64,000 nucleotides of DNA from assembly GCA_003153375.1 (NCBI GenBank), contig PLYM01000103.1:50736-114735 (forward strand). Direction: 5' to 3'. The position numbers were made by a program, and so were the translations under genes. Below the pieces are notes generated by a model, which searched no databases, was not told the origin of the DNA, and was given only the letters and a program-made list of their open reading frames with translations. Below, piece by piece: positions 3,132 through 63,465 of this stretch; the stretch's first letter is position 1; each line of letters starts with the position of its first letter. The DNA is from Planctomycetaceae bacterium (GTDB taxonomy: Bacteria > Planctomycetota > Planctomycetia > Pirellulales > PALSA-1355).

Positions 3132-3184
3132 GGGCTTATTTCTCAACAAGCCAGCCGACGAATCGGCCGAGCCTGCGTTTTTGC

Positions 3185-19965: not shown

Positions 19966-20535
19966 ATGCGCAAGAAACTGTTGATCGCCCTGGGCGTGCT
20001 GCTGGTCGTTTGCGTTGGCTTCTTGGGCCTAGTGGCCTTGCAGCCGAGCACGTTTTCGATCGAAAGGTCGACGAACGTCGCCGCTCCGCCGTCCGTGGTG
20101 TTCGCCGAGCTTGACGACTTCGAGGCTTGGAATGCCTGGTCTCCGTGGGCCAAGCTCGATCCAAACGCCAAGACCACGATGTCCGATCCCTCGTCGGGCA
20201 CGGGCGCTCGGTTCATCTGGTCCGGCAACGATCAGGTGGGCGAGGGCAGCCTGACCATGCTGCAAAGCAACCCGCCCGAACTGGTTGAGGTCGAACAAGA
20301 ATTCGTGCGACCGATGGCCGGCAAGGCCCGGATGACGTTCCATCTCGTGCCAGGCGATGGCGGGACGCGGTTGACCTGGAAAATGGATGGCACGAACGAC
20401 TTCATCGGCCGGGCGATCTGCATGTTCATGGACATGGATGCCCTGGTCGGAAAAAACTTTGAGAAGGGTCTGGCGGCCATCAAGTCTCTGGCCGAGGAAC
20501 GCGCGGGGCAGCCGGCAACGGCGCCCGCGTCCTGA
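19966..20535 (+). CDS. SRPBCC family protein (polyketide cyclase/dehydrase-like) with N-terminal TM
   Basis: [43 protein letters not shown]. Confidence 0.8.
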
Positions 20536-23379: not shown

Positions 23380-23472
23380 TTCACCGGGACCGCTGGCCAG
23401 GATTGCGGCCGTCGGCTAGAACGCCCGACATGGACGACTTGGGCGATTCGCCGATCGCACGCCGCCAGAGCG

Positions 23473-36984: not shown

Positions 36985-36988
36985 GGCC

Positions 36989-40423: not shown

Positions 40424-40477
40424 GGTCGCGGCACCTTGTGTTTCGATCCGGACACTGCGTCCGGACCGAGATCCCAA

Positions 40478-41698: not shown

Positions 41699-41765
41699 AC
41701 GTTTCGTTCTCTGCTGGGCTCCCAGGCAAGAGCCGGCGCACGGCCGGTAGGTTCGGAGCACCTCG

Positions 41766-45134: not shown

Positions 45135-46614
45135 TTGCGAGCGGCTTGGCGTTTCGCGGCAGGGCCAGGTCGGCGAAGGCCCGTGCCAGCTCGCTGGGAT
45201 GCACCGAATTGCCCGCCAGGACCACCTGGCCGCGACGGATCGAGTCCTCGAGGGTTGCGTTGCCGCGCGTCAACTCGGCGAGCGTCGCCGCAGTGAGATA
45301 GCACGTCAAACCATTGCCGTTTTGCAGGCCCACACCGGCGCCAACGACCCGTTGCTGATCCATCACCAGGTGCCATTGTCCGCCGCCCGGTCCACTGACG
45401 TGAAGGCTGACATACCGCAAGCGGCCATCGGCGGCTGGTGCAAGGGCGCCGTTGTCCAACCAAGGGTTGAGCAGGCTGGCGGCTTCAAAGGTCGGTACGA
45501 TCGGAGCTTCACGCGGCCAGCCGAAATTGGCTCCGATCGCGAATCGGATCAGCCGGTCCATGACTTCCGCATCGACTTGCGGACAGGGCACGTCCGGCAG
45601 GGCGGCCTCGGTTCGAGCTGAATCAAACTGGGGATCGTCGCTCCAATAGGACTGATAGACTCCCATCTGCTCGCGGAATGAATTGGCATAATCGTCGCCG
45701 ATCTCGTGCAGCGAACGGCTGGACTTGAAACCTTGGACAATTTCACCGAGCACGAGGCCCATCGCGTGGCGGATGGACTGCGTGGTGGCCGGATGCGGGT
45801 TCGTCAGATGATAGGTTTGGCCATGCAGTCCAGGGGTCGCAATCAGACGGGTCATGACCGAGGAGACCCAATCCACCGGGACCAGATTCTTTCGCTCGTT
45901 GCCCGCCAATTGCAGACTGCCCATCCAGTCGCCGCCCATGATGACTTCAGCGGGCAGCGTCTTGAGGAGAGAGTACACCAGCCTCAAGGGCGTATAAAAG
46001 CCGTGGTAGGAAGTCGTAAAGCCCGTTCGCGAGTCGCCGACGATGATCGACGGACGATAAATCGTCACGCGGTCGAAAATGTTCGCCGCCAGGACTTCCT
46101 TCTCGGCCGTGATTTTGGTCAGTTCATAGTCGTTGCCAAACTGCTGACCGAGGTCGAGCTCGGATTCGAGGATCCGTCCGCGCCGCAATCCGCAAATGTA
46201 CGCGGTCGAAACGTGATGATAGTTGGGAATTTGGTACTGGCGGCAAACATTCAGTACGTTGCGCGTGCCCTGGACATTGCTCCGCCCTGGTTCGCCGCTC
46301 GTCGCGTCGGCATGAAAGGTCAAGGAGGCCGCGGAGTGCACGACCGACCCGCAGTTGCGGCGTACCCATTCGAGGTCCCGAGCATTGAGTCCCAGTCCGG
46401 CTTCACTGATGTCGCCTTGCAAAACGACAGGCCGCAGGAGCGGTCGGCCGAGTTCGCGTTCCCAGCGGGCCATCGCCGTTTCGACGCGTTGGGCGGCCGA
46501 TTCCCATCTCGTCGGCCGCACGATGACGGCCAGCGGAATCTCGGCCAGAGTGAGGTCACACAGCAGATAACGTCCGAGCAGGCCGGTTGCCCCGGTCAAA
46601 AGAAAGTACCGCAT
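45118..46614 (-). CDS. Thioester-reductase-like extended SDR with SCP2-like C-terminal domain
   Basis: MRYFLLTGATGLLGRYLLCDL; YELTKITAEK (YxxxK); C-term GGQWHLVMDQQRVVGAGVGLQNGNGLTCYLTAATLAELTRGNATLEDSIRRGQVVLAGN. Confidence 0.75.
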   Translation of the reverse strand: MRYFLLTGATGLLGRYLLCDLTLAEIPLAVIVRPTRWESAAQRVETAMARWERELGRPLLRPVVLQGDISEAGLGLNARDLEWVRRNCGSVVHSAASLTFHADATSGEPGRSNVQGTRNVLNVCRQYQIPNYHHVSTAYICGLRRGRILESELDLGQQFGNDYELTKITAEKEVLAANIFDRVTIYRPSIIVGDSRTGFTTSYHGFYTPLRLVYSLLKTLPAEVIMGGDWMGSLQLAGNERKNLVPVDWVSSVMTRLIATPGLHGQTYHLTNPHPATTQSIRHAMGLVLGEIVQGFKSSRSLHEIGDDYANSFREQMGVYQSYWSDDPQFDSARTEAALPDVPCPQVDAEVMDRLIRFAIGANFGWPREAPIVPTFEAASLLNPWLDNGALAPAADGRLRYVSLHVSGPGGGQWHLVMDQQRVVGAGVGLQNGNGLTCYLTAATLAELTRGNATLEDSIRRGQVVLAGNSVHPSELARAFADLALPRNAKPLANAMVQ

Positions 46615-47055
46615 GATCAAGGTCGCTCAGCTTGGGTGAGAAAATGACGTCCATCAGCTCGCCCCATCCTTAGGCGCAGGTCGCGACAACAGCCAACCAG
46701 GCTTCGATGCATCAATCGCGGAGAACCGCCTACGAAAATCGCCGCGACCTCACTCGGTCGAAGGCACTGAATGCACTGCATGTATAAGCTGCACCGAATG
46801 GTGAATGCAAGTCTTTTGAGGGGAATGGTATCTGCTAACGTCTCCCGGTGGGGTTTTCGACCGATCACCAGCAAAAAAAAGCCGTAGCGTTAGACCACAT
46901 ATTCCCCTCCAAATGGGGGGGGTCCTCCTCGTTTGCCGGCTCTGGCAGGTTTCGGTCGATAAGCGACCATTGTTTGCTCGGAGCAGATGTTCCGGTTGGC
47001 ACAGCAGCCATTTGACAGTCCATCAACGCGCGCCTAGGTTAACGACGGCCCCCGG

Positions 47056-48423
47056 GTGAAAAACGTGCTCTTTCCTTTGCCGTTAACTCCATTCGAGCGC
47101 TACTATTGGGCCGACAATCGTCCCGATTATCCGACCACGTTTCCGATCGAGTTATCGTTCTTCGGCACGTTGAACGAACCGGCTTTCCGCGCCGCCGTGC
47201 TGGCGGCCCAAGGCCGCCACCCCCTGTTGACCGCGCGGATTGACGACCAGGGGGTCGACCCGCGCTGGGTCGCGACCGAAAAGCCCGAGCCGCCCATCGA
47301 TTGGGCCGCCGAGGGCGAGCCCATTCGCTATCCGGGCGACGCCCCCATCAATCTGCGAGTTCAAGTCGGCCTGCGGGTCTGGGCGCGGCCCGGCGTGGCC
47401 AAGAGCCTGGCGCGGTTTGAGTTTCATCACGCTAGCTGCGACGGACTGGCCGCGATCCAGTTTGTCAGCGATTTTCTGGTCTGTTATGCGAATGCCTGTG
47501 CGGGCGAGGGTGCCATTGCGACATTGGCCGAGTTGGTTCCCGAACGATTGCTCGAACGCGGCAGCCTGTCCGTTGACAACCCGGAACCACCGTCGCTGAA
47601 GACGGCCGCGCGCGATTCCTGGGTCACCGCGCGGTTGTGGATTGGCATCCTGGTGCAACGTTGTGCGCTGCTGGCCGCTCCGCGAGGCCCGGCCGATGTT
47701 GCCGCCAGAGTCGGGCCGTCCGAGCGGATCATCGAGTTCGAGACGCGCGTCTTGGTGCCCTCGGAAGCCGAGCAACTGCGGGCTGCCGCCAACTCGCAGG
47801 GAGTGACGGTCAATGACCTGTTGACGCGTGATCTGTTGGCGGTGCTCAAGGATTGGAATCAATCGCACGGCGAGCCTGGCGGGCGTCGGCTGCGCATCAG
47901 CGTGCCTGTGAATATCCGCTGCTCGTTGGACCGGGACATGCCGGCTGCCAACCGCATCGGGTTCGGCTTCGTCGAGCCCGAGCCGCGAGACTTTCGCGAT
48001 CGCGCGACATTGCTGGCCGCGGTCCGCCGGCAGATGGACCAGATCAAGCAGTGGAAGCTCGGCCTTTACTTTCTGGGCGGGCTGGCATTTGCCAGCCAAT
48101 TCAAGTCGCTCATTCCCTGGGCGCTGCACCGGAATCGGTCGTTCGCCACGATGGTGCTGAGCAACCTGGGTCGCATCTTCGCCAAGACGCCGCTGCCACG
48201 GCGCGAGGGGCGATTGATCTGCGGCGACGTCGAACTGGAACGCCTGACGGGCGTGCCGCCGATTCGCCCGCTGACGCGAGGCTCGTTCGCCATCTTCGAA
48301 TACGCCGGCGAATTCGCGATCTGTCTGCGGTGCGATCCCAAACTGTTTCGGCCGCGCGATTGCGGCGAGCTGGTCGACGCCTATGCCGATCGGCTGCGCG
48401 AGACCGCCCGTCTGGGTGCTTAG
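47056..48423 (+). CDS. Condensation-domain/acyltransferase-like protein (HHxxxDG superfamily), second copy
   Basis: RFEFHHASCDGLAAIQFVSDFL; N-term LFPLPLTPFERYYWADNRPDYPTTFPIEL matches 43644 copy (VFPLPLTILESFLVLDSRPDYPMHAEVEV). Confidence 0.7.
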   Translation: MKNVLFPLPLTPFERYYWADNRPDYPTTFPIELSFFGTLNEPAFRAAVLAAQGRHPLLTARIDDQGVDPRWVATEKPEPPIDWAAEGEPIRYPGDAPINLRVQVGLRVWARPGVAKSLARFEFHHASCDGLAAIQFVSDFLVCYANACAGEGAIATLAELVPERLLERGSLSVDNPEPPSLKTAARDSWVTARLWIGILVQRCALLAAPRGPADVAARVGPSERIIEFETRVLVPSEAEQLRAAANSQGVTVNDLLTRDLLAVLKDWNQSHGEPGGRRLRISVPVNIRCSLDRDMPAANRIGFGFVEPEPRDFRDRATLLAAVRRQMDQIKQWKLGLYFLGGLAFASQFKSLIPWALHRNRSFATMVLSNLGRIFAKTPLPRREGRLICGDVELERLTGVPPIRPLTRGSFAIFEYAGEFAICLRCDPKLFRPRDCGELVDAYADRLRETARLGA

Positions 48424-48438
48424 GTAGGCACGGCGTGC

Positions 48439-49209
48439 TTAGGGATGCACGGCGGCGCCGCCATCGACCGTCAGTACTTCGCCCTGCACCAGGTCGCTCA
48501 AGGGGCTGACCAGGAACAGCGCCGCGTCGGCCACATCGGCGGCCGTGAGGACGCGATCGCCCATCATCGATTTTTCCTTGCGACCTTCGAAGATCGCTTC
48601 GGCATTCGGAATGCGCCGTGTCGAGTCGGTGTCGACGAGACCTGCCTTGATGACGTTGACGTTGATGCCATGCTCGCCCACTTCGAGGGTCAAATGACGG
48701 GCCAGGCTTTCCAACGCGGCCTTCGAACTGCCGATCAGGCCGTAGAAGGGCAGGGCGGTGCCCGAGCCGTGGCTGGAGAAGGCGATCACCTTCGTGCGCC
48801 GCTCGCCTTCGTTGCGCTTCATCAGCGGAAACGCGGCCTGCACCAGGTAGAGCAGGGCCAGCACGTTGGTGTTATACGCCGCCTCGAAATTGCGGCCGGT
48901 CGCGGTCAGCAGCGTGCGAAAGCCGCCCGTCGCGGCATTGCTGACCAGGATATCGAGCTTGCCGAACTCTTCCTTGACGGCCTCCATCATGCTGCGCACG
49001 TCGTCGACTTCACTGACGTCGGCCTTGACGACCAGCACGCGGAGGCCCATCGCCGAGATCTGCGCGGCCACGGCGTCCGCGGCCTGGCGGTTAACGACAT
49101 AGTTGACCACGATGTCGGCGCCCGCCTCGGCCAATCGCAGAGCGCACGCCTTGCCGATACCCCGGGAACCGCCGGTTACCAAAGCCACTTGTCCGCTGAG
49201 ATCGATCAT
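48439..49209 (-). CDS. SDR family oxidoreductase, FabL-like enoyl-ACP reductase candidate
   Basis: GQVALVTGGSRGIGKACALRLAEAGADIVVNY; SNAATGGFRTLL; FYGLIGSSKAALESLARHLTLEV. Confidence 0.7.
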   Translation of the reverse strand: MIDLSGQVALVTGGSRGIGKACALRLAEAGADIVVNYVVNRQAADAVAAQISAMGLRVLVVKADVSEVDDVRSMMEAVKEEFGKLDILVSNAATGGFRTLLTATGRNFEAAYNTNVLALLYLVQAAFPLMKRNEGERRTKVIAFSSHGSGTALPFYGLIGSSKAALESLARHLTLEVGEHGINVNVIKAGLVDTDSTRRIPNAEAIFEGRKEKSMMGDRVLTAADVADAALFLVSPLSDLVQGEVLTVDGGAAVHP

Positions 49210-49227: not shown

Positions 49228-49986
49228 TCAACGCGAAGAGGAATTGGGATCGTGGTCGCCCTTGACCGTCGCCAGCACGGCGATTTGCTTGTCGACGCTC
49301 CAGAACCGCAAGCAGCCCGGGAGCGAAATCTGTTGATAGCTGCAGCGTCCACCGGGAAGCACCTCGATCATGCGAGGTGCGAATCCTTCTCCCCGATTAC
49401 ACGCTTTGAAGAGTGCTTCCTTGGCTGCCCAGATCGTTGCGGCGGCATGCGCATCGGTCGACTCGGCCAGCCACCGCTGTTCGGCCGGCGTAAACCAAAG
49501 CCGCACGAAACCCGCGGAAACGTCCTGGCGCGCTGCCAGGTCGACACCCACGGCAACGCTCGGCGCCGTCGATAGCGCAACCAGCACGCCACGTTGGGTG
49601 TGCGAGATCGACAAGGACCACGGCATTTGTTGTCCATCGCAAACGACTCGCGGCCGGCGGCCCCGGCGTTGATCATTGAGCGAGAGGATCTCGATCGCGG
49701 AGTCAGCCGGCGCAGCGGACCAGGTTTCGCGCACTAGTTGTTTGGCGAGCAGTCGGCCGGCGAGCCACGAACGGCGACGGTCAGGATCGTGCCAGGCCGC
49801 GAGTTCAGCCCGTTCGCGGTCGCTGAGCAACGCACCGCTCCCCGAGGCCAGCAGTGCGTCGAACGCGTCGAACGCCTCGAGCGCGCTGTAACGATGAGCG
49901 ACCTCGGCAACGTCGGCGCGGGCGCCGCCGGCGAGCGACTCCAGCGCGATTCGAGTGGTTTCGGCGTTAGGTGCACAGAGGGTCAT
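49228..49986 (-). CDS. 4'-phosphopantetheinyl transferase (Sfp superfamily)
   Basis: WSLSISHTQRGVLVALSTAPSVAVGVDLAAR; IWAAKEALFKACNRG; start at ATG 49986. Confidence 0.88.
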   Translation of the reverse strand: MTLCAPNAETTRIALESLAGGARADVAEVAHRYSALEAFDAFDALLASGSGALLSDRERAELAAWHDPDRRRSWLAGRLLAKQLVRETWSAAPADSAIEILSLNDQRRGRRPRVVCDGQQMPWSLSISHTQRGVLVALSTAPSVAVGVDLAARQDVSAGFVRLWFTPAEQRWLAESTDAHAAATIWAAKEALFKACNRGEGFAPRMIEVLPGGRCSYQQISLPGCLRFWSVDKQIAVLATVKGDHDPNSSSR

Positions 49987-50017: not shown

Positions 50018-53000
50018 TTACTTGATCGTGATGACGCGATGGCCATCGACGCGGACGATGACCGATCGGTCGTCACCAAACACGGTGAAGTCGTAAATGG
50101 CATGTTCCGGTTGGATCTCGCGGCACGTGAATGCCACCAGGCATTTTTCGTTGTCGCGTGGCCGCCGGCCGAGGTGTACCGCTTCGATCGACGATGGCAG
50201 CGAAAAGGCCCCTTCATTGTGGAAGTAGCAATGGATGCCGCACACATAGAAGCCGGCATCGATGAGCGTGGCCGGCACCAGCCAGTCATGACCCGTGCGC
50301 TGGCCGCCGAGCTCGGCCATGGGCATCGCCACGAGCTGCCCCCAGCCGCCGGGCGTGTCGAATATGGCAGCTTTCAGTCCGTGCAGCGCCGGGCCGTGCA
50401 CCAGCGGGCCATCGTGCTGAAAGATTACCGGGTGCCATTCGGTCGGCGGCTCGGGCATTGGCACGTCGAGCGACGACGCTCGCTCGGCCACCTCGGCCGT
50501 GGCCCGCAGGTGAACGCGGTCTTTCTTCATCAGCATGCCGGCTCGATTGCGAAAATCGCTGAGCAGTTCGCAACTCAACGACGTGCCTTGCTCGTTCGTC
50601 ACGCGGATGCGGCCGACAATCGGCTGATCGCTGTGGCACAAAAAGCCCTCGATGAGCTGGACGTCGCGAATGGCAGTGACCGTTTTTCCGCTGGCCAGCG
50701 CGGCCGCCTCGGCGACGGCTTCCATGCCAATCACGGCCGGCAGCAGCGGCTTGCCGCGCAGCTTGTGATCGATCAGGAAAGGATCGGCCGCCGGTTGAAA
50801 GTGAATCTCGGCGTCCAAGTGGCCGGCCGTGTCGCGGCCGATCTTTTCGACCAAGGGTACACGACCGATTGCCGCGCCCGAGGGTACGGTGGCCGCTCCG
50901 CCCGCACCTTCACAGGTTACGAACGGATAGAACGTGCGTTCGAAAAATCCGTCGCCGATCAGCACTTCACTCGCGGGCAAGCCGGCTTCGAGCTCGCGGC
51001 ACAAGTGTTCGACGCCTTCCTTGGGCGGAATGAAGGCCATCTTCAAAATGCCCTTGGTACCGACGGCACTGTCGCCGAGCATGGCCATGCCGATTTCATC
51101 CCACGACTGCCAATGCATGCAGCAGGCGGCGCAGTCCGGCCGCTGGGAGCGATACCAGTCGATGAGCTTGGCCAACATCTCGTTGGACGTTGCATACTCG
51201 CTCAGTCCATTGCCGCCGTAGCGGCCGCTGATCGAGCCGAAGCCCAGGAAATAACGCACCGGATCGTTTCGCGTCAGCGACATCAGGCCGACGGCGCCGT
51301 CCAGTTTTCCGGCCAGCGTGCGTTCGACCAGATCGCGGCTTCGCGTGCCAAATTTTCCGGAGCGGGCAAAGCCGGCGCCGTGCATGATGCCCTGGATGGG
51401 ACCATCCTGGCGGCGGACCTGGTCGAGAATCGTGGCTAACTGGGCCCAGTTCGAGAGATCGCACGAATAGTACGTGGCCTGCACACCGGCAGCGGCAAAT
51501 TTCTTCAACGTTTCGTCGATCTCAATATCCGATTTGATCGCATCCCACTCGGGCTCGGGCGAGCGACCCTCCGCGACGGCCTGGCGAACGATCTTGGCTT
51601 TGATTTCGTTGAGCTTCTCGGGCGTGCAATCGCGCCACTCGGAGTCGGGACGCGGCACGCGACTGCGGCCGATCAGGTGCAGCTTGATGCCGAACCGCTT
51701 ACCGAGCTCGAATGCCGCCGCCGCCGTAACGCCGCGAGCGCCGCCAGTGACCACCCACGTGCCTCCGTGCGGCATGTCCGTCTTGGGCAACGACTCGACG
51801 GGCCGGGCGAATGATTGAATGACGCTTCGCGCGCCACGCGACCAGCCGACCTCGACATAAGGATCGTTGGCCGCCAGTTCGCGGAAGATCGCATCGACGA
51901 GCGTGGCCGGCGCTTCGTCGGCCGGGGCGTCGATCACCTTCACGCGGACTTCGCTCGGTGAGCGGCGCGTGTCTTCCACATAAATCGACTTGAGCATGCC
52001 GCAGATCGCTCCGCCTTCGGGCGTTGCGACATGGCTCGAGAGGGCGAAATCGCCACCCATCGTCGTGGCGGCCACGATCGTGATAGGCGTCGTGTCCTTG
52101 GCCTTCATCCGCAGACGAAACCACTGTTGGGCGGCCATGAACGGCACCACGACTCCGGCCGCGCGGCGATCGAGCCAGCCCGCGTGGTCCAGCAACGAGG
52201 CATTGCTCGTGTCGCGGCCCGACATCAGAAATAGATAGCGCGGCCGCCCGGAGGCGTAGATCGTGTCCATTGCCGCTGCGGCTTCCTCGGGCGATTTCGT
52301 ATCGGGCAGCATGTGTACCGGCACGCCCGCGGCTTGCAAGCGATCGCGCAGAGCGAAGGCCGCGGCGTTATGGCCCATGATCACGGCCGGACCTTGCCAT
52401 TGCGGTGCGATGGCGCTGCCGGCCGGCAACGGCGCTGCGACCATCCGCAATTCGCTGCGATAGGTTAGCGGCACGAAGGGCACGGGATCCCATTTGGCCT
52501 GAGGCGCCGGCCGGGCCGGTTTCACAACCGGCGCGGGCGGAGCAATAGGCGTGGCGGCTTCGGTCGATGGAATCGAGTCGGTGGGCGACTGACTGGGGCC
52601 ATCCTCGTCGCCCGGCTTGGGGTGATCCTCGGTGCCGTAGAAGCGACCGTGATAGTCCCAAGTCGTGATCAGGACCTCGGAGATTGGCGCCCCGGCGTAC
52701 ATCTCGCGGAGCAAGTGGTTGATTCCCTCTTGCTTCGACATGTGGCCGGGCCCGTCCGTCATTTTCAGCATCGTGATCGTCTCGGGTCGCGCGGCCATGC
52801 CGACTTCGTCCCAAGGATGCCAGTGGATGCCGACCGAGTGAACGCCGGCTCGTTGGCCGCGATACCAGCCTGCCAGCTTGCACAGCATGTCGCTGGCCAG
52901 GCAATAATCGGTTTGCCCGTTGCTGCCCATGCGGCCGCTGACGGAGCCGAAGCCGATGAACCAACGCACCGGATCCTGCCGGGTCAACCGCATCAGGTTG

Positions 53001-56000
53001 AGCGCGCCGTCAACCTTGGCGGCCAAGGTGGCCATCACGGCGTCGCGAAGCTTGCGCTCGTAAATTCCGGCACGTTCGATGCCCGCGCCGTGGACGATAC
53101 CCTCGATTGGACCGCTCTGCTGCCGAATGGTGTCGAGCACCGCCGCCATGGCGTCGCCGTTGGCCACGTCACAGGCGTGGTAGGTGGCTTCGACACCGGC
53201 GTCGGCGAAGGCTCGCAGCGAGCGGTCGATCTCGATGTCCTTTTGCACGCGGGCCCAATCGTCGTCCATGTTGCGTTTGGCCGCGCGCGCGTCGCGCATC
53301 ACGGTCAGCTTGAGCGCCTTCAACTCGTCGGCCGAAAGGTTGCGCCAAGCGGGATCGATCGCTCGCAAGGGAGACGTGCCGATCAGGTGCAGTTTCAGGC
53401 CGAAGCGACGCCCCAGCTCCAACGCGCATTCGGCCGTGATGCCGCGGGCGCCTCCGGTGAACACCCAGGTGCCTCCTGGTCGCACGTCGGCAAATTGCCG
53501 AGGCGTGGCCTTTTCGGGAACCGCATATTCCAAGCGGCGGGTGCCTTTGACGAACGCAACCGCGTAGTCGACGCTTTTGCCAGCCAACTCGCGGCAGATG
53601 TTGGCGGCCAGCAACTCGGGCGACTCCTCGTCCGGCGCGTCGACGACCATGGCCCGCATGCCGGTTTGCTTGCGAAGCACGGCCACTTCGACGTGGACCG
53701 CTTTCAGCAGGCCGGTCAGGGCCGCGCCCTCGGGCCGATCGACCTGGCCCGAGAAGCCGAAATCGCCGTTCATGGCGGTGGTGCCCACGAACGTGCAACG
53801 CGGTAGCAAGTTGGCCTGACCGGCCAACTGCACCCAGCGCTGGCCCAGAAAGTAGGGCAACACGGCGACGCGATACCAGCGGCGCTGCCAGGCGACTTCG
53901 TCGTTCGGATCGGCCGCCTCGGCGTCGCGACCTGCCACCAGGAACACGTGGGGCGTGGGCTGTTCATTCCAAATGCGCTCGAACGCGCCCAAGGTCTCGT
54001 CCAGGTCGTCGGTGACCGGCAACTGGAGCACGGTCACGCCAGCGGCTTCGAGTTGGCGTCGCAGGGCATCGCCCAAGGCGTTTTCGCCGACGATCAGCGC
54101 GGCGCCGGACCATTGGGGCATGGCGGGAACCGACGAGTCGAGCGGCACGTCGACGATCGTCGTGGCAAAACGATGGGTCGCGAGCTCGTCGTTGCCCGGC
54201 AGGTCGTAGGGGGCGGACGGCGCGACGACCGCGCCACGGGGCGTGGCAGTCGGGTCGACCTTGGGCAGCAGCTCGCCCAGCGCGAAGCGATAGTAGCCGT
54301 TGGTCTTGCCATTGCTCGACAAGGCCGGGTTGACCCAGAAGTCGCCGCGCGCCGGATCCATGACCACATCGATGCGCCGCGCCGCGTGATGAGCGTGGGC
54401 TTTGCCGTTGGTCGAAGCCTTGCCGTTGGTTTCGGCTTGGGACCACAACGAACGGATTTGATCGGCCGTGAAGCCTGTCTGTGGAGCCGTCGACAGCAAA
54501 TCTTTTACCTGGTTCCAGCGATGCTTGGACGCGAGGGGCACTTCGGCGGTTGCTTCGAGCACGGAGTGATTCGCGGCGATGACGGTGTCTTTGCTGTCGC
54601 GCACGTGCAAGCGGCGACCATCGGATTCGACGTACCGCAAGCGGTCGGTCGGATAGTGGCTGAGGCAGGCGCTCCAAGCCGCGCCGTTGCGATAACGTTG
54701 CAACAGTTCGACGGCCGAATCGAGACAGATGGCCTCGGCAAGGACGTGCGACGTAATGGCCGCGTGCATGCGGCCGCGCAATGCCGGTTTGCCCTCGACA
54801 CGTTGCTCGAGCGCGCCGGCCGTGATTGCCAGCCCGTGGGCGTTGACGCCCGTCAGCCCGCCGATGGCTCCGGCGATCGAAAGTACGACGTGCGGAATGC
54901 CGCCAGCCGGGCTGCGCACCTGAACGACCGGTTGCACAACGTCGGCCAGAGCCGACGACAGCGGGAGCTGTTCGCTCGAGGCGTGCAGGAGTGTGCTGGC
55001 CTGGTTGCGGGCCGCGGCCACGGCGAAGTGCAACGACGCGACCCCGAGATCGGAAAACACCGCCAGGTTGTGGACCAGTATGCTGGTCAACGGCACCTGC
55101 ACCGCGTCCGCTATGCCGCGCAGTTCTTCGACTTCGCTGGGCGTGAAATACTTTGCCAGGTCGTCCGACGATTCGAGATCGAACGGTAACTCGTCGAAGC
55201 CGGGTCCGGCCATGTCGACGTAGCGCCGCAAGATGCGCCGAATCTCTTGCTTCTTTTGCCGGCCATGCTCCAGGCCCATCTCATAGGGCGTGCCGGCAAG
55301 GTGCAGCGGTTGCAACTTGTCACCCGAAGTCTTTGCTTGCTCGAAGACCGAGGGCGCGGCAGTCGGCCCCTCGACCGGGGCGCTCGGACCGTCGCTGGCG
55401 ACCGATTCCACCGGCGAGACCGTCTCCGGCGAAGTTTCCGCGGCGTCAGATGGGCTGGGAGTTAAGTTTTTTTTTTGCTCGCCGCCGGCGAGGAAGTTCA
55501 ACACATGTCGCAACGTCGGGAAATCGTCGAGCGTCATGTTCTCGGTCGGCTGGACGTCGAAATACTCGGCCAACTCGCCGAATAACTGGGCCTTCTTGAT
55601 GCTATCGATGCCGAGGTCGGCTTCCAGATCAGCATCGAGTTCGACGACTTCGGGCGGATAGCCGGTCTGTTCGACGACGAAGTTGATGAGAAACTTTTCC
55701 AATTCGGCCGGATCGAGCGAGGGCCCCGCAGCCTGCGATGGAGCGACGGGGGCCGGTTGCTGCTCGATCGGTGCCTGCCAGGCAGGAGCAGCCGGAGCGG
55801 CGGCGACGGGTGCTGGCGCGGCTGCAGGAGCTGCCGTCGTCAGAGGGCTTTTGGCCGTGGCGTCGCCGAGGAAATTCAGCACGTGACGCAAGGTGGGGAA
55901 ATCGTCGAGCGTCATGTTCTCGGTTGGCTGGACGTCGAAGTATTCGGCCAGCTCGCCGAACAATTGAGCCTTCTTGATGCTGTCGATTCCCAAGTCGGCT

Positions 56001-59000
56001 TCCAAGTCGGCGTCGAGTTCGACGACTTCCGGCGGATAGCCGGTCTGCTCGACGACGAAGTTGATCAGGAACTTTTCCAACTCGGCCGGGTCGAGCGAGG
56101 GACCAGCAGCCTGTGATTGCATCGCCGGGGCTGTTGCTTGAGCGACCGGTGCGGGCACGGGAGCGGTCGCAGCAACCGCGACGGGAGCCGGAGCGGCCGC
56201 CGTCGTCAGAGGGCTTTTGGCCGTGGCGCCGCCGAGGAAATTCAGCACGTGACGCAAGGTGGGGAAATCGTCGAGTGTCATGTTCTCAGTCGGCTGGACG
56301 TCAAAATACTCGGCCAGCTCGCCGAACAATTGAGCCTTCTTGATGCTGTCGATGCCCAAGTCGGCTTCCAGATCGGCATCGAGCTCGACGACTTCCGGCG
56401 GATAGCCGGTTTGCTCGACGACGAAGTTGATCAGGAACTTTTCCAACTCGGCCGGGTCGAGCGAAGGACCATCAACCTGCGATTGCGTCGCCGGGGCTGT
56501 TGCTTGAGCGACGGGTGCGGGAGCAGCTGGAGCAACCGCGACGGGAGCCGGGGCGGCCGCCGTCGTCAGGGCACTCTTGGCCGTGGCGCCGCCGAGGAAG
56601 TTCAGCACGTGACGCAGCGTCGGGAAATCATCGAGCGTCATGTTCTCAGTCGGCTGGACGTCAAAATACTCGGCCAGCTCGCCGAACAATTGAGCCTTCT
56701 TGATGCTGTCGATTCCCAGGTCGGCCTCCAGATCGGCGTCGAGCTCCACAACTTCGGGCGGATAACCGGTCTGCTCAACCACAAAGTTGATCAAGAACTT
56801 TTCCAATTCCGCCGGGTCCAGCGAAGGGCCGGCCGCACGCGTCTGCGCAGCAGGAGCCGCTTCACGCACCACGGGCGTCTCTCGGACCGCCGGAGCGGGT
56901 GCCACGGCAATCGGAGCGCTGGGCGCCGACTCGCCCTTGGGCTGCGATCCGGCCAGGAAGTTCATCACGTGACGCAGCGTGGGAAAATCATCGAGCGTCA
57001 TGTTCTCGGTCGGTTGAACGTCAAAGTATTCGGCCAGCTCGCCGAACAATTGCGCCTTCTTGATGCTGTCGATCCCCAGGTCGGCCTCGAGGTCGGCGTC
57101 GAGCTCCACGACTTCCGGCGGATAACCGGTCTGCTCGACCACAAAATTGATCAAGAACTTTTCCAGGTCCGCCGCGTTCAAGCCGCTGCTTGCCGGATGC
57201 GTTTGGGCCGCCGGCGCCTTTTCTCTCGGCACGGGTACTTCTCGCGGAGCCGGCGTCGGAGCAACCGGACGCGGCACAGCCACCGGCGCGCGGGCCGTGG
57301 CGGCGGCAATCGGCGCAGAGGACCGTTGCCCGGCCGCGACCGCACTGGGCTGCGGCACGGCTGGCCTGGCGGCGGGCGACGAGCCGTTCGAGTGACCAGC
57401 CTGATCGCCATTCTTCGCGGCAGGCGCGGATTGGAGCGAGCGGCTGGTCGTGGTCGGTCCAGACGCCTGTTTCGTCCCGGGCGACGGCCCTGAGTCGTTC
57501 TTGGCGACCGGTTTCTGGGTGGTCTTCGTCGCCGCTTGCCGCATCTTCTCAATGCGGCGCTGCGTCGCGTCGAAGTGCGCAATCGTTCCCTTCTCGGGTT
57601 TGCTAATCGCCGTTGCGGCGGTCGCCGCCGGCTGAGTCAGGCTCGTTCGTTGAGCCTGCTGTTCGTCAAACGCGCCCAGGCAGTCCAACATCGCGCGAAC
57701 ATTGAAGAGTTGCTCCACGCCCGGATACTTCGAATTGTCGCAGCCGATGATTCCCGGCACGCTGCTCCCGTCCAGGATTCGGCGGTTGAGTTTCGTCAAA
57801 GCTTGCTGCGGCCCGACCTCGACGAACACGGTTTCTTGCTCGTCCGCGATACGATTGACCAGGTCAACGTAACGCACGGGCGTGGTCAGTTGAGCGGCCA
57901 GATTCGCCCGGATGTCGAGCGGTTCGGCCACGTAGCGGTTGGTCACGCTGGAAAGCAACGGCACCCTGGGCGGCCGCAGCCGCAAGGTGTCGAGCGTCCG
58001 CTTGAGGATCTCACCGCTGCCGGCCATGAGCGGCGTGTGGTACGGACAGGGGACGGAGAGCAACTGGGTTTTGTGACCGCGAGCACTCAACAACTCGGCC
58101 AGTTGTTTCAGCGTGTCGCTTCGCCCGCCAATCACCGTTTGATCCGCCGCGTTGTAATTCGCGATATAGGCGCGATCGCGCAGCGTCGCGGCCAACTGCT
58201 CGATCAACGGCGGCGGGGCGGTGGTCGCCATGAGCGAGCCGCGGGCGCTGGGCGTCACTTCAATCGCGTCGTAGCGAGCACGCGCGGCTGTAATAACGCC
58301 CTCGATGTCCCAGACCCCGGCGGCCGTCAGCGCGGCAAATTCGCCGTAACTGTGGCTCGAGACCAGGTCTGGTTGAATCCCGAAATCGACGACGGCCGCG
58401 TGAACGATCAAATCGGCTAACAGCATCGCGATCTGAGTCACCCAAATGTTGGCGCCGAGTTGGTTCGGATTCTCCCACACCATCTGGCCAAAAGTCTGGT
58501 AGCCGCGCTGCACCATAACCGCGTCGATCGCGCGCATCGCAGATGCGGCGGCGGGAACGTCGCGCACCAGTTCGCGGAGCATGCCGGCATATTGCGAGCC
58601 TTGCCCGGGGAAGAGAAACGCGATCCGCGGGCGGCGGGCGGCCAGTTGCCGGTAGAAGCAACCCTGCTGTTCGAGCACCGGCTGAGCGTCGGGGTTGGCG
58701 AACTGCTTGGCAGCCATCTGCAGCTTTCGCGCGAACATTTCCGCATTGCCGGCGACGATCGCGATGCGCGAATGATCCTCGGGCGTGAACCGTGCGGCGG
58801 CCGCGGCCGTGCGCGCCGCCGGACAATCCGCGAGTGCCTGTTGAAGCTTCGCATTGAGCTCGGCGGGCGTTGCCGCGCCCAGTCGATAGATTTGCCAATC
58901 CAGTGTTTGTCCCGCGGAGGCGACCGGAGTCGCCGGAACCGTCGCCGCCGCGACGATCGGTTTCTTTTCCGCGGCCGGCGTGGGAGTTCTTTCGCTGAGG

Positions 59001-61882
59001 GGCACCTTTTCGCCACGTTCCAGAAGGATGTGATACGCCAGACCTTTGCCGAATGAACTGATCGCGGCCAGACGCCGGCCGTCGCGAGTCGTATGGCGAA
59101 TCGCCAGCGGCGCGGTGGCCGCCTGAAGAACGCTGGCGTTTTGCGCCACGATCGACAGCGGCGTTTTGAGGCCGAACATGGCCGGCATCTGACCGGTTTC
59201 AATTTCCATGCTCGCCTTGATCAACGAGGCCATGCCCGAAGCGCCCATCGTATGCCCGATTTGACCCGTGAGGGAGCTAAACAACAGCGGCTGGCTACGC
59301 GGCGTGCGCCCGTAAACCGAGACGACTGCGCGCAACTGTTCCTGGTCGCACTGCGGCAAGCCGGTGCCGTCCATTTCGATCAGGGCGACGTCGGCCGGTT
59401 CGACCTCGGCGGTCTTAAACGCCCGGTCCATTGCCAGCCGCAAAGATTCCTCGACACTCTTGGCGTGTGCCCCGCCGACGCCCCGGACGATCGCGTGGAT
59501 TCGGTCGCCGTCTTTTCGCGCTTCGGACAGCCGCTTGAGCAGCAGTACGCCGACGCCCTCACCGGGCACAATTCCGCCGGCCGCCGCGTCAAAAGGACTG
59601 CTGGGATGATCGCTCAGGGCCAGGACACCGTTGATGGCCATGGCTTCGTATTGGGGCAGGTTCATGCATCGTTGGCCGCCGGCGCAGATCATCATGTCGC
59701 AATCGCCCGAAAGCAGCATGTCAACGCAGGCGGAAAGCACGGCGGCGGAGGACGCGTCACTGCTGTCGATGGACGCCGCGCCTCCCATCAGGTTCATCGT
59801 CTTGGTGATGCGCGACGCCAGCGTGCTGGTGCTGAAGCTGCCGCTTTCGTCAACCAGGGCGGGCCAATGTTTCAGCATGACCTCGCTGAACTCCGAGGCG
59901 ATCGCCGCGGAGCGATCCGTGGCAATGCCGTGTCGCCCCATCGATTGCCTCAGGAGCATTTCAATGTGCGGCAGCCGCAGGCCGAGTTCCAACTGTGCTG
60001 AGAAATCGCCGCCGAACTCGGTGCCGACCAACACACCCAGCCGTGTGCGATCGAACGGCTTCTTGTCGTAGCCCGAGTCGATCAACGCCTGGTCCGCGGC
60101 TTCCAAGAGCATGAACTGCAACGGGTCGGCCTGCTGGACTTGCTTGGGTGGCTCTTTATGCTTGCGCCAGTCATACGCAAAATCGGTGATGTAGCCGCCC
60201 AGCGTGGAGGGTGTACGGTAGGGCCGTCGCGATCCGGCTTCGTAACTCAGCGCGCTCAAACGTCCCGGCGGCATCGAACACTTGGGATCGCGGCCCGTGG
60301 AGAGCAGTTCCCAGAATTTCGAGGGCCGCGCGGCGCCCGGAAAGATGCAGCCGATACCGATGATGGCGACGGCCTCGTTTTCCGAATCGCTCGAGGCCGG
60401 CGTTTTGGGCTTGGCCTGTACTTGTCCATTCGCCTGGTAGGCGGCGTTGAGCGAGGCTCGCCGCGCTTCGGTGAACTCTTCGAGAACGATGTGTACGTTC
60501 AAGCCGCCAATGCCGAAGGCATTGACGGCGGCGCGGCGCGGCAAGCCATTCGGCTGCTCGGGCCAGGGCGCCGGTTCCGTGGGGATGTAAAAGGGAGCCG
60601 TCTCCCAGTTGATCTTCGAGTTGAGCGATTGGATATTGATGGCCGGCACAAACGTACGATGCTGCAAGCAGAGGATCGTCTTGATCACGCTCGAGACACC
60701 CGCCGCTTCCAGGGCGTGACCAATGTTGGCCTTGACGCTCGTTACTGGAATCTTCTTGCCGGGGGGGAAATTTTTGCCCAGGACTTCCGTCAGCGCGTTG
60801 AGTTCCGTGGCATCGCCCAGATTGGTCGAGGTCGCGTGCGCCTCGATGTATTGCAGCGTGCTCATGTCGACGCCATGTCGATAAGCGCGCTCCATGGCCT
60901 TGACCTGTCCCTCCTTACGCGGCGCCCAGAGGCTCTTGCCGCGACCATCGGACGACATTCCCAACCCCAAAATGACCGCCTGGATGGGATCGCCGTCGGC
61001 CAGGGCGCGCGGCAGGGTCTTGAGGACCAAGGCGACGTACCCCTCGGAACAGATCAGCCCGTCGGCCGTGGCGTCGAACGGTCGCGAACCCGTTTCGCTC
61101 ATCGACTGGGCGTGGGAGAACAGCACCAGCGAGTCGCTCTTGCAATCCGACGCGCCGCCGACGATCGCCATGTCGATCCGGCCCAATTGCAAGGCGCGAA
61201 CCCCCAGCATCACGGCTTGCAACGAAGACGCGCACGCGGAATTGACGGCCGTGAACGGGCCGTTCAGCGCAAAGGCCTTCGAGATCGTGCCGGCCACCAT
61301 GTTGATGGCAACATCCGGCGAATCCGTGGCGCGTTGGGGCGTCTGAGCTCGAACGGTTTCGACCAATTCGCGGACGATTGCTTCTTGATCCTGCGGCGGC
61401 AATTGCTGGAAACCGGGCACTTCGCGGAGCAGCTGCGCGGCATCTTCGATGCAGGTGCCATAGGTGAAATCGGCGGCCAGATTGCTTCCCTGGGCGTGGC
61501 CGACGTACACACCCGTGTTGCGCAAGGCCAGATTGAACGGATCGAATCCGGCGTGACGGCAGGCTTCGGCCGCGGTTTGGCACATCAGCAAATGGGCATT
61601 GTCGACGCTGTTCTCCAGGCTTTTTGGAATCGGGCAGGCTTCGCTGTTGAACTCGCGGCTGGAAATGATGGCGCCGATTTTCGAGTAGGTCTTACCACGT
61701 TGGCCACGCCTGGGATCGTAGTACAGCTCCTGGTCGAGGCGATCGTGAGGCAATTCAGCGATCGAACTGCCGCCACCGATCAAGAGATTCCAGAACTGTT
61801 CCAGGTTATCCGCGCCGGGGAGGCGGCAAGCCATCCCGACAATGGCAATCGGAACGTTGGTGTGTCCGAATGGAGTTTCCAT
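50018..61882 (-). CDS. Giant iterative type I PKS / PUFA-synthase-like megasynthase: KS-KS(CLF-like)-AT-ACPx5-C45-like-KR-KR-DH
   Basis: 3954-aa ORF. KS1 (~60440-61860) TAVNSACASSLQ, EAHATST, NIGHALEAAG; KS2 (~59010-60390) IDSSDASSAAV; AT (~57700-58640) FLFPGQGSQYAG, SSHSYGEF; five GIDSIKKAQLF ACPs (~55490-57180); C45-like LAGTPYEMGLEHG (~54325-55320); KR1 (~52600-54200) and KR2 (~50950-52470) GGARGxTAx, GSxSGRxGxNG; DH (~50018-50860) DHKLRGKPLLPAV. Confidence 0.85.
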   Translation of the reverse strand: METPFGHTNVPIAIVGMACRLPGADNLEQFWNLLIGGGSSIAELPHDRLDQELYYDPRRGQRGKTYSKIGAIISSREFNSEACPIPKSLENSVDNAHLLMCQTAAEACRHAGFDPFNLALRNTGVYVGHAQGSNLAADFTYGTCIEDAAQLLREVPGFQQLPPQDQEAIVRELVETVRAQTPQRATDSPDVAINMVAGTISKAFALNGPFTAVNSACASSLQAVMLGVRALQLGRIDMAIVGGASDCKSDSLVLFSHAQSMSETGSRPFDATADGLICSEGYVALVLKTLPRALADGDPIQAVILGLGMSSDGRGKSLWAPRKEGQVKAMERAYRHGVDMSTLQYIEAHATSTNLGDATELNALTEVLGKNFPPGKKIPVTSVKANIGHALEAAGVSSVIKTILCLQHRTFVPAINIQSLNSKINWETAPFYIPTEPAPWPEQPNGLPRRAAVNAFGIGGLNVHIVLEEFTEARRASLNAAYQANGQVQAKPKTPASSDSENEAVAIIGIGCIFPGAARPSKFWELLSTGRDPKCSMPPGRLSALSYEAGSRRPYRTPSTLGGYITDFAYDWRKHKEPPKQVQQADPLQFMLLEAADQALIDSGYDKKPFDRTRLGVLVGTEFGGDFSAQLELGLRLPHIEMLLRQSMGRHGIATDRSAAIASEFSEVMLKHWPALVDESGSFSTSTLASRITKTMNLMGGAASIDSSDASSAAVLSACVDMLLSGDCDMMICAGGQRCMNLPQYEAMAINGVLALSDHPSSPFDAAAGGIVPGEGVGVLLLKRLSEARKDGDRIHAIVRGVGGAHAKSVEESLRLAMDRAFKTAEVEPADVALIEMDGTGLPQCDQEQLRAVVSVYGRTPRSQPLLFSSLTGQIGHTMGASGMASLIKASMEIETGQMPAMFGLKTPLSIVAQNASVLQAATAPLAIRHTTRDGRRLAAISSFGKGLAYHILLERGEKVPLSERTPTPAAEKKPIVAAATVPATPVASAGQTLDWQIYRLGAATPAELNAKLQQALADCPAARTAAAAARFTPEDHSRIAIVAGNAEMFARKLQMAAKQFANPDAQPVLEQQGCFYRQLAARRPRIAFLFPGQGSQYAGMLRELVRDVPAAASAMRAIDAVMVQRGYQTFGQMVWENPNQLGANIWVTQIAMLLADLIVHAAVVDFGIQPDLVSSHSYGEFAALTAAGVWDIEGVITAARARYDAIEVTPSARGSLMATTAPPPLIEQLAATLRDRAYIANYNAADQTVIGGRSDTLKQLAELLSARGHKTQLLSVPCPYHTPLMAGSGEILKRTLDTLRLRPPRVPLLSSVTNRYVAEPLDIRANLAAQLTTPVRYVDLVNRIADEQETVFVEVGPQQALTKLNRRILDGSSVPGIIGCDNSKYPGVEQLFNVRAMLDCLGAFDEQQAQRTSLTQPAATAATAISKPEKGTIAHFDATQRRIEKMRQAATKTTQKPVAKNDSGPSPGTKQASGPTTTSRSLQSAPAAKNGDQAGHSNGSSPAARPAVPQPSAVAAGQRSSAPIAAATARAPVAVPRPVAPTPAPREVPVPREKAPAAQTHPASSGLNAADLEKFLINFVVEQTGYPPEVVELDADLEADLGIDSIKKAQLFGELAEYFDVQPTENMTLDDFPTLRHVMNFLAGSQPKGESAPSAPIAVAPAPAVRETPVVREAAPAAQTRAAGPSLDPAELEKFLINFVVEQTGYPPEVVELDADLEADLGIDSIKKAQLFGELAEYFDVQPTENMTLDDFPTLRHVLNFLGGATAKSALTTAAAPAPVAVAPAAPAPVAQATAPATQSQVDGPSLDPAELEKFLINFVVEQTGYPPEVVELDADLEADLGIDSIKKAQLFGELAEYFDVQPTENMTLDDFPTLRHVLNFLGGATAKSPLTTAAAPAPVAVAATAPVPAPVAQATAPAMQSQAAGPSLDPAELEKFLINFVVEQTGYPPEVVELDADLEADLGIDSIKKAQLFGELAEYFDVQPTENMTLDDFPTLRHVLNFLGDATAKSPLTTAAPAAAPAPVAAAPAAPAWQAPIEQQPAPVAPSQAAGPSLDPAELEKFLINFVVEQTGYPPEVVELDADLEADLGIDSIKKAQLFGELAEYFDVQPTENMTLDDFPTLRHVLNFLAGGEQKKNLTPSPSDAAETSPETVSPVESVASDGPSAPVEGPTAAPSVFEQAKTSGDKLQPLHLAGTPYEMGLEHGRQKKQEIRRILRRYVDMAGPGFDELPFDLESSDDLAKYFTPSEVEELRGIADAVQVPLTSILVHNLAVFSDLGVASLHFAVAAARNQASTLLHASSEQLPLSSALADVVQPVVQVRSPAGGIPHVVLSIAGAIGGLTGVNAHGLAITAGALEQRVEGKPALRGRMHAAITSHVLAEAICLDSAVELLQRYRNGAAWSACLSHYPTDRLRYVESDGRRLHVRDSKDTVIAANHSVLEATAEVPLASKHRWNQVKDLLSTAPQTGFTADQIRSLWSQAETNGKASTNGKAHAHHAARRIDVVMDPARGDFWVNPALSSNGKTNGYYRFALGELLPKVDPTATPRGAVVAPSAPYDLPGNDELATHRFATTIVDVPLDSSVPAMPQWSGAALIVGENALGDALRRQLEAAGVTVLQLPVTDDLDETLGAFERIWNEQPTPHVFLVAGRDAEAADPNDEVAWQRRWYRVAVLPYFLGQRWVQLAGQANLLPRCTFVGTTAMNGDFGFSGQVDRPEGAALTGLLKAVHVEVAVLRKQTGMRAMVVDAPDEESPELLAANICRELAGKSVDYAVAFVKGTRRLEYAVPEKATPRQFADVRPGGTWVFTGGARGITAECALELGRRFGLKLHLIGTSPLRAIDPAWRNLSADELKALKLTVMRDARAAKRNMDDDWARVQKDIEIDRSLRAFADAGVEATYHACDVANGDAMAAVLDTIRQQSGPIEGIVHGAGIERAGIYERKLRDAVMATLAAKVDGALNLMRLTRQDPVRWFIGFGSVSGRMGSNGQTDYCLASDMLCKLAGWYRGQRAGVHSVGIHWHPWDEVGMAARPETITMLKMTDGPGHMSKQEGINHLLREMYAGAPISEVLITTWDYHGRFYGTEDHPKPGDEDGPSQSPTDSIPSTEAATPIAPPAPVVKPARPAPQAKWDPVPFVPLTYRSELRMVAAPLPAGSAIAPQWQGPAVIMGHNAAAFALRDRLQAAGVPVHMLPDTKSPEEAAAAMDTIYASGRPRYLFLMSGRDTSNASLLDHAGWLDRRAAGVVVPFMAAQQWFRLRMKAKDTTPITIVAATTMGGDFALSSHVATPEGGAICGMLKSIYVEDTRRSPSEVRVKVIDAPADEAPATLVDAIFRELAANDPYVEVGWSRGARSVIQSFARPVESLPKTDMPHGGTWVVTGGARGVTAAAAFELGKRFGIKLHLIGRSRVPRPDSEWRDCTPEKLNEIKAKIVRQAVAEGRSPEPEWDAIKSDIEIDETLKKFAAAGVQATYYSCDLSNWAQLATILDQVRRQDGPIQGIMHGAGFARSGKFGTRSRDLVERTLAGKLDGAVGLMSLTRNDPVRYFLGFGSISGRYGGNGLSEYATSNEMLAKLIDWYRSQRPDCAACCMHWQSWDEIGMAMLGDSAVGTKGILKMAFIPPKEGVEHLCRELEAGLPASEVLIGDGFFERTFYPFVTCEGAGGAATVPSGAAIGRVPLVEKIGRDTAGHLDAEIHFQPAADPFLIDHKLRGKPLLPAVIGMEAVAEAAALASGKTVTAIRDVQLIEGFLCHSDQPIVGRIRVTNEQGTSLSCELLSDFRNRAGMLMKKDRVHLRATAEVAERASSLDVPMPEPPTEWHPVIFQHDGPLVHGPALHGLKAAIFDTPGGWGQLVAMPMAELGGQRTGHDWLVPATLIDAGFYVCGIHCYFHNEGAFSLPSSIEAVHLGRRPRDNEKCLVAFTCREIQPEHAIYDFTVFGDDRSVIVRVDGHRVITIK
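55490..57182 (-). repeat. Five tandem ACP-coding repeats, ~360-bp period in the ACP1-4 region
   Basis: 66-aa core EKFLINFVVEQTGYPPEVVELDADLEADLGIDSIKKAQLFGELAEYFDVQPTENMTLDDFPTLRHV occurs five times without an amino-acid change. Confidence 0.95.
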
Positions 61883-61998: not shown

Positions 61999-63465
61999 TC
62001 ATGAAGAAGAAACGATGGACTGGAGGATCCTGACAAAGTCTTGATGGCCGCCGATGCCATCACCGTCGCCTTCGATGAGAACGCGTCCCGAACGAATTGA
62101 CTGTTCCACCGAAAACCGCCCTTGCACGAGCGATGAAAAAGTGTTCGAGTTCAAGTAATAACGGGCCCGGTCGGCCGACCCTAATCCGAGATCGACGCCA
62201 ACCAAATTGCCGTCGCGAATCAACAGCCGCCACTGTCCCCCGCAAATCCCGGAAACTTGCAGACCGATCGTGTCCGCACCGGCGCCGCCCTGCGCCGCTT
62301 CCTGGCCGGAACCCACCGCCCGGAGCAAGTGCTCGCGCGGCTGGAAACCGGGCTTCGGCGGCTCAATCCGCCGGAGGAGGAAATTCTCCTTCACAGGGTA
62401 ACTCGCGATGCGAAGCAGCATCTCGTCGTCGATCTGCGGACACGGTAAATGCGGCAATGCTTGATCCGTATGGGTTCGATCGAACAGCGGATCGTCGCGC
62501 CAATGGGAGCGGTAAACTTCCATGTGCTGTTGGAATTCATGTTCGAATTGAACAATTTGCTCTTCGCTCAGCCTGCCGACAAACCGCCGGGTCGAGTACT
62601 TTTCGATGGCTTCTTGCACCACGCGCTGAATCAGCCGCACCGTCACGGGGCTGGGATTGGTCAAATGGTAGGTCTTCCCGTGATGCTCCGGGTGGCTCAC
62701 CAGCTCAACGATAGACGCCGAGAGCCAATCGACCGGCACGAGGTTTTTCCCTTCGTCGCCCCGCAAGCCGAGCAAGCGAAAGAACCGTTCGCCCATCAAC
62801 TCAGTCGGAACCTTGTCGGCGATGACGTAGGCCAGTTGCAGCGGCAGGTAAAAACCATGCGATGATACCGTGTAGCCGGTATGCGAGTCGCCGACCACGC
62901 TGGCCGGGCGGTACACGGTTACCTCGTCGAGGAAATCGGCCGCTCGCACCATCTTTTCGGCTGCTAACTTGCTGACTTCGTATACGTTGCCGTTCTGCTG
63001 ACCGAGGTCCACTTCGTCCTCGAAAATCCGCCCCCCCCGCAACCCACAAATATATGCCGTCGATACATGGTGGAACTTGCGAATTCCGGTCTGGCGGCAC
63101 AGTTCCAGCACGTTGCGCATGCCGTCGCGGTTCGTGCGGAACGGTTCGCCGTGTTTGTCTTCGCGAAAAGTCATGCTGGCGGCATTGTGCAAGATGCTAT
63201 CGCAGTTGTCGGCGATCCAGCCGCGGTGCTGCTCGTCGAGTCCCAACATCGGTTGGCGGAGGTCGGCCTCGAGCACCACGGGCCTCGGCAAGCTCCGGCC
63301 CGCGATGCGCTCCCAACGTTCCATCAACGCCTCGACCCGTTGAACGGCCGATTCGACCCGGTTCGAGCGGGACAGGACCGCAACCGGCACGTCAAGCGCC
63401 AACAGATCGCGCAGCAAGTAGCGACCAACGAGTCCTGTCGCGCCAGTTAGAAGAAGATATTTCAT
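61999..63465 (-). CDS. Thioester-reductase-like extended SDR with SCP2-like C-terminal domain, second copy
   Basis: MKYLLLTGATGLVGRYLLRDLLALDVPVAVLSRSNRVESAVQRVEALMERWERIAGRSLPRPVVLEADL; YEVSKLAAEK; C-term GGQWRLLIRDGNLVGVDLGLG...NTFSSLVQGRFSVEQSIRSGRVLIEGD. Confidence 0.75.
   Translation of the reverse strand: MKYLLLTGATGLVGRYLLRDLLALDVPVAVLSRSNRVESAVQRVEALMERWERIAGRSLPRPVVLEADLRQPMLGLDEQHRGWIADNCDSILHNAASMTFREDKHGEPFRTNRDGMRNVLELCRQTGIRKFHHVSTAYICGLRGGRIFEDEVDLGQQNGNVYEVSKLAAEKMVRAADFLDEVTVYRPASVVGDSHTGYTVSSHGFYLPLQLAYVIADKVPTELMGERFFRLLGLRGDEGKNLVPVDWLSASIVELVSHPEHHGKTYHLTNPSPVTVRLIQRVVQEAIEKYSTRRFVGRLSEEQIVQFEHEFQQHMEVYRSHWRDDPLFDRTHTDQALPHLPCPQIDDEMLLRIASYPVKENFLLRRIEPPKPGFQPREHLLRAVGSGQEAAQGGAGADTIGLQVSGICGGQWRLLIRDGNLVGVDLGLGSADRARYYLNSNTFSSLVQGRFSVEQSIRSGRVLIEGDGDGIGGHQDFVRILQSIVSSS

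Follow-up and report, generated by a model that had tools for sequence, protein, structure and literature searches.

Fusions of KS, CLF and AT are already known: Shulse and Allen (2011) described them in HglC (type F) and, for types C and D, in fused pfaBC (PMC3098273). The same work describes type R, a one-protein KS-MAT-CLF-ACPn-KR synthase with an adjoining PPTase gene, in Koribacter, Solibacter, Roseiflexus and Elusimicrobium, and identifies tandem ACPs as a feature by which secondary lipid synthases stand out (PMC3098273). The Planctomycetota are abundant and their specialized lipids are almost uncharted. Species descriptions from this phylum mention clusters of the type I PKS and hglE-KS classes without analysis, and a 2025 review counts five compound classes and a single study directed at a gene cluster, which encodes a type III PKS (PMC12078418). 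Here we analyze a megasynthase encoded in a 64,000-nucleotide stretch of planctomycete DNA (the window) and compare it with these systems.

Domain organization of the megasynthase

An ORF check of the 64,000-nucleotide window finds the megasynthase in a single unbroken frame of 3954 amino acids (50018..61882, minus strand), which starts with an ATG; a thioester-reductase gene lies 117 bp upstream of this start. An earlier note on this DNA had described the uninterrupted ORF correctly, without mention of its strand. Pfam and NCBIfam scans independently give the domain order KS-CLF-AT-ACPx5-C45-KR-KR-DH, identical to the order proposed in that note, and the Pfam matches comprise two ketoacyl-synthases, one AT, five PP-binding domains and, as the note had also proposed, two KRs before a single PKS_DH. 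Sequencing or assembly error and chance are ruled out as sources of this arrangement, because the same architecture recurs in single ORFs of 3585–3956 amino acids in many independent genomes.

C-terminal to the two ketosynthase-like domains, and on the minus strand throughout, the acyltransferase (residues 1086–1370; 57773..58627) has Ser1178 in an HSYG motif. Five tandem ACPs follow (55463..57202), with phosphopantetheine serines at 1606, 1726, 1846, 1968 and 2094, and these domains are mutually 83–97% identical (n=5). Beyond the C45 insert lie two KRs, each accompanied by a structural subdomain, the first at residues ~2560–3060 (52703..54205; Tyr2993) and the second at residues ~3130–3650 (50933..52495; Tyr3563), and then a dehydratase with HxxxGxxxxP at 3706 (residues 3675–3950; 50033..50860). 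The tandem KRs fall into two paralogous clades common to the window’s lineage, with 84% support for the first-KR clade, a pattern consistent with the second KR being an old paralogue of the first that arose in one ancient duplication and has been retained since. Overall, the protein displays the features by which secondary lipid synthases are broadly recognized, namely KS, ACP and KR domains, usually with the ACPs in tandem, and homology to Pfa proteins.

The KS-CLF didomain

The first ketosynthase (residues 11–470; 60473..61852, minus strand) carries C217, H349 and H389, and this Cys-His-His triad is kept in all 89 copies compared. In the CLF-like domain that follows (residues 504–955; 59018..60373, minus strand), D709 stands in for the Cys and D838 for the first His, and both catalytic residues are missing from the second ketosynthase in 89/89 copies. 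Judged by these substitutions, no copy compared has a catalytically competent CLF-like domain; an active second ketosynthase can be dismissed, as the Cys occurs in 0 of 89 CLF domains. The domain also has the motifs YDWxxHKxPPKQ and GTEFGGDF.

AlphaFold modeling, one of the checks suggested in the earlier note, was applied to the C45 domain (below) and to the KS-CLF didomain, whose model has a pLDDT of 93 and a pTM of 0.95. Its best match in the PDB is the KS-CLF of PfaC (6riw; TM 0.77/0.80), which superposes on the whole didomain over 992 columns and is also the one solved chain displayed with a single sequence stretch that spans both KS and CLF. The remaining PDB matches listed cover one half only or fail to superpose along the full didomain. 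A quick, unrooted tree groups the dead domain with the PfaC CLFs, apart from every catalytic ketosynthase, across a branch supported at 98% (SH-aLRT). Together, the lost Cys, the 6riw match and this branch bear out the earlier proposal that a CLF-like ketosynthase is fused behind the first.

The catalytic ketosynthases were also placed against PfaA and PfaC, as the note had suggested. In two quick trees, in which deep branching is weak apart from the 98% branch, the planctomycete ketosynthases form a clade of their own (support 100), outside the PfaA/ArsA and PfaC KS clades. These trees, with their weak deep branches, thus lend no support to a simple derivation of the KS from PfaA or PfaC.

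Gene neighborhood and proposed function

The gene directly upstream, on the same (minus) strand, encodes a thioester/fatty-acyl reductase (NAD_binding_4) with a C-terminal extension (61999..63465). Downstream are genes for a 4'-phosphopantetheinyl transferase (PPTase; 49228..49986, minus; start inferred, in a frame open to 50289), a FabL-like trans enoyl reductase (48439..49209, minus), a WS/DGAT or PapA-like acyltransferase (47056..48423, plus), a second NAD_binding_4 thioester/fatty-acyl reductase (45118..46620, minus), a second WS/DGAT or condensation-type acyltransferase (43644..45134, minus) and an alpha/beta-hydrolase esterase whose membership in the pathway is unsure (42601..43557, minus). 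Beyond the cluster lies an RND efflux system, composed of an HlyD adaptor and two consecutive AcrB-type pumps (33586..41761, minus), which is common to the window and one close relative only and is a possible exporter. The enoyl reductase, an SDR, contains the sequence YGLIGSSK, with YX6K rather than YX3K spacing; 30 of 31 family members have the YX6K spacing, the motif of FabI/FabL enoyl reductases.

We counted neighbors in the 25 loci that span 19 kb or more (the long loci), in which limited flanks make every count a lower bound, using local profiles built from part of the same loci; a gene-order list for eight genomes, produced by a greedy ORF caller, includes false ORFs and was not used for these counts. 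The FabL-type enoyl reductase is present in 24/25 long loci, the NAD_binding_4 thioester reductase in 18 and the PPTase in 15. Less frequent are the WS/DGAT-like acyltransferase and an MMPL exporter (11 each), a metallo-beta-lactamase-fold protein (10), an AMP-ligase (8), a Rieske oxygenase (7) and a class III aminotransferase (6). When the aminotransferase and MMPL genes of relatives were sought in the window’s genome, good matches were found on other contigs only (up to 39% and 36–43% identical, respectively), and thus the cluster has no clear orthologue of either. In some family members, genes for the Rieske oxygenase and a HemL-like class III aminotransferase are found next to the synthase, as in the G034 region (19261–20496 and 22709–24172; L055 and the end of locus L054) and similarly in other loci. 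About 0.5 kb beyond the end of the window, a histidine-ammonia-lyase-like gene (L011, 13232–14845, plus) adjoins the AMP-ligase; the lyase gene is not kept in related clusters and has a second copy on another contig of the genome.

We consider it reasonably likely that the megasynthase works iteratively as a self-contained type I secondary lipid synthase, akin to fatty-acid and PUFA synthases, that depends on enoyl reduction in trans, releases its chain reductively and hands it on for acylation. As judged from domain and gene assignments, the full set of activities for an iterative malonyl-based cycle is present (KS-CLF, AT, ACP, KR, DH, trans enoyl reductase and PPTase). Iteration itself, the use of malonyl units, chain length, mode of release and an acylated lipid as product class are proposed by analogy with the Pfa and heterocyst glycolipid systems (PMC3098273, PMC11804610), the latter of which combines the same toolkit, thioester reductase included (PMC11804610). 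In this scheme, the PPTase of the same operon would activate the ACPs, and the AT would load malonyl units onto all five. The KS active site and the dead CLF, paired in a fused pseudo-heterodimer, would condense these units and set chain length. One or both KRs would then reduce and the DH dehydrate, and the FabL-type enoyl reductase, a separate protein whose gene lies just downstream, would, when used, saturate the double bond. Next, the neighboring NAD(P)H thioester reductase could free the finished chain as a long-chain aldehyde or alcohol, which the WS/DGAT-PapA-like acyltransferases could esterify or amidate. The product would be a wax-like or amine-capped long lipid, destined for the cell envelope or for export. 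Counting against this scheme, beta-hydroxyls could remain in a chain processed by two KRs and a single DH, and the reductases and acyltransferases may serve acyl chains from elsewhere. Moreover, the scheme alone does not account for the genes for AMP-ligase, aminotransferase and Rieske oxygenase seen in relatives.

A planctomycete family with several architectures

A search with a CLF marker finds the KS-CLF pair in 77 of 300 sampled genomes and 37 of 124 genera of the same order (Pirellulales), and a search of 60 relatives with the C45 region finds eight genomes, the window’s own included, with PKS frames of 2787–3956 amino acids. Among 399 genomes sampled evenly across the phylum, strong matches (E < 1e-130) occur in the same class only, in 14 genomes; weaker matches outside the class are probably generic ketosynthases. 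When 85,488 prokaryote species were scanned, the 79 best-scoring loci carried planctomycete names, save for one bin labeled just ‘bacterium’. Several of these bins are named Kuenenia, a planctomycete genus, and the 79 include loci from Blastopirellula marina DSM 3645, Bythopirellula polymerisocia, Planctopirus hydrillae, Rhodopirellula and Stieleria.

Profile searches of the loci, with examples checked by Pfam, distinguish three architectures: a long form, KS-CLF-AT-ACPn-C45-KR(-KR)-DH; a short form without C45, KS-CLF-AT-ACPn-KR-DH; and a split form, in which one protein consists of KS-CLF-ACPs or of ACPs alone and a second is KS-CLF-AT-C45-KR-DH. On these sequence comparisons, the megasynthase is one member of a large, planctomycete-specific and uncharacterized family with at least three architectures. 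The presence of this family in about a quarter of the sampled genomes of one order, cultured species such as Blastopirellula marina and Bythopirellula polymerisocia included, and of relatives in Planctopirus hydrillae and Stieleria makes it directly testable. More broadly, the one-chain layout could serve as a compact chassis for engineering long-chain lipids.

The window’s genome bears a second synthase copy (L009, G000:C213) at 2–4792 on the minus strand, which begins KS-CLF-AT-ACP, is truncated by the contig with 1597 amino acids visible, and has its own thioester-reductase gene upstream. In Rhodopirellula and Stieleria loci (L090, L091, L093 and L105), the first PKS protein contains a BioF/serine-palmitoyltransferase-like alpha-oxoamine synthase domain, placed behind KS-CLF among the ACPs at about residues 1230–1640; this fusion suggests release as a sphingoid-like amino-ketone. 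The actinomycete Nonomuraea gerenzanensis encodes a single-chain KS-AT-(divergent KS)-ACP-KR-DH protein (L143, 8896–16647), whose divergent KS has an apparent VNAACAST motif and whose domain order resembles published type R.

The C45 insert

The C45 or isopenicillin-N-acyltransferase-like domain (residues ~2190–2520; 54323..55315, minus strand) passes the cut-off of the NCBIfam C45_proenzyme profile NF040521 (90 versus 85 bits, residues 2197–2512), and the profile of the family matches isopenicillin N acyltransferase at 7e-18. The AlphaFold model of the domain (pLDDT 81.5) has isopenicillin N acyltransferase as its top structural match (2x1c/2x1d; TM 0.71 for 2x1c), and by this model the insert is a genuine isopenicillin-N-acyltransferase fold. 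The earlier note had called it acyltransferase/hydrolase-like, a description that stands for the fold and probably fails for a working hydrolase. In the window, Ser2283 occupies the nucleophile position and the Asn of the next motif is gone, making a working Cys hydrolase unlikely in this copy; a later Asn-His is retained. Ser2283 may itself act as a nucleophile, but the domain is probably inactive and would then be a non-catalytic relic or scaffold, with the Cys persisting in relatives. In an alignment of PKS-embedded domains with stand-alone C45 proteins, 8 of 9 stand-alone proteins have the Cys. A search of the window’s genome found no C45 beyond the megasynthase’s own, and we found no report of a penicillin-acyltransferase-like domain embedded in a PKS in the open-access literature searched.

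A more ambitious reading, which we advance tentatively, covers both the C45 insert and the serine-palmitoyltransferase-like fusion. In this phylum-specific class of one-chain lipid synthases, a PKS would have taken up an acyltransferase/hydrolase of the penicillin-acyltransferase fold, to serve for release or for self-splitting; the domain would then have decayed or become Ser-dependent in the window’s lineage, while sister lineages would have fused a serine-palmitoyltransferase-like domain to make amino-lipids. Jointly, these enzymes would produce long-chain (amino)lipids of a family not known before in planctomycetes.

That C45 is the release enzyme of the megasynthase or a self-processing site, which would move the ACP-bound acyl chain to an amine or to water and perhaps split the protein in two by autoproteolysis, we regard as improbable. 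Isopenicillin N acyltransferase does cleave itself by autoproteolysis, and the shared fold, a Gly-Cys retained in about one-third of PKS-embedded C45 domains (for example, in Planctopirus, Stieleria and Rhodopirellula) and an NF040521 score of 133.8 for the Planctopirus homologue all fit such a role. In the window and its close relatives, however, the Cys is replaced by Ser, Ala, Gly or Met, and the next-motif Asn is lost; thioester reductases also adjoin the synthase gene.

Alternative products

No better are the chances that the megasynthase is an ordinary Pfa-type PUFA synthase with fused subunits, making polyunsaturated fatty acids such as EPA, DHA or arachidonic acid. It has tandem ACPs and a KS-CLF fold like that of PfaC, and it passes the cut-off of the PfaA profile TIGR02813 (1071.9 versus 1010.1), but the Planctopirus homologue scores below that cut-off (794.8) and the KS clade lies outside those of PfaA and PfaC. 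Furthermore, there is one DH rather than the two FabA-like DH/I domains of PfaC, a FabL-type SDR is found where no PfaD-type enoyl reductase was recognized among the neighbors, and those neighbors indicate reduction and acylation, not incorporation into phospholipids. An aryl-polyene-like type I synthase, in which the ammonia-lyase and CoA ligase would supply a cinnamoyl-type starter for extension to a conjugated polyene by KS-CLF, is the least probable reading and was dropped: the lyase and AMP-ligase do adjoin each other just upstream, the ligase is kept in 6/8 genomes of the greedy-caller gene-order list, and KS-CLF, KR and DH would fit a polyene, but the lyase occurs in 1/25 loci, resembles histidine ammonia-lyases and has its second genomic copy, and an enoyl reductase in 24/25 loci runs contrary to an all-conjugated chain.

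Comparison with known systems

Isopenicillin N acyltransferase and the C45 family resemble the insert in fold and profile, but here the domain is embedded in a PKS and has Ser at the nucleophile position. Enediyne PKSs are single-chain iterative KS-AT-ACP-KR-DH enzymes with no CLF, one ACP and a PPTase domain in the chain, whereas the megasynthase has a CLF, a C-terminal DH and a separate PPTase; no enediyne cassette was seen among its neighbors. PUFA synthases (PfaA–E) share the KS-CLF didomain fold, tandem ACPs, AT, KR and the PfaA profile match, but consist of several proteins with two DH/I domains, a PfaD enoyl reductase and a distinct KS clade. The heterocyst glycolipid synthase (Hgl, type F) is similar in its KS-CLF-AT fusion (HglC), iterative long-chain synthesis, thioester reductase and PPTase. 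In contrast to the single-chain megasynthase, however, it is a split system of HglE and HglC that makes C26 diols, lacks C45 and tandem KRs, and is accompanied by a glycosyl transferase and ABC export.

Type R, compared here by its published description, likewise unites KS, MAT, CLF, several ACPs and KR in one protein with a PPTase gene next door (directly downstream in the window), but its order is KS-MAT-CLF-ACP-KR, it has no C45, one KR and no DH listed, and it comes from other phyla. The earlier note knew of no characterized system with the order seen here, and in the open-access literature searched we likewise found neither the KS-CLF-AT-ACP5-C45-KR-KR-DH order nor its C45 insert or tandem KR. 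Its description of the architecture as unusual therefore holds for the order and needs qualifying for the parts, as KS-CLF-AT fusions (HglC, types C and D) and the one-protein type R were already published (PMC3098273). The megasynthase is thus a novel arrangement inside the known class of secondary lipid synthases, phylum-specific and uncharacterized.
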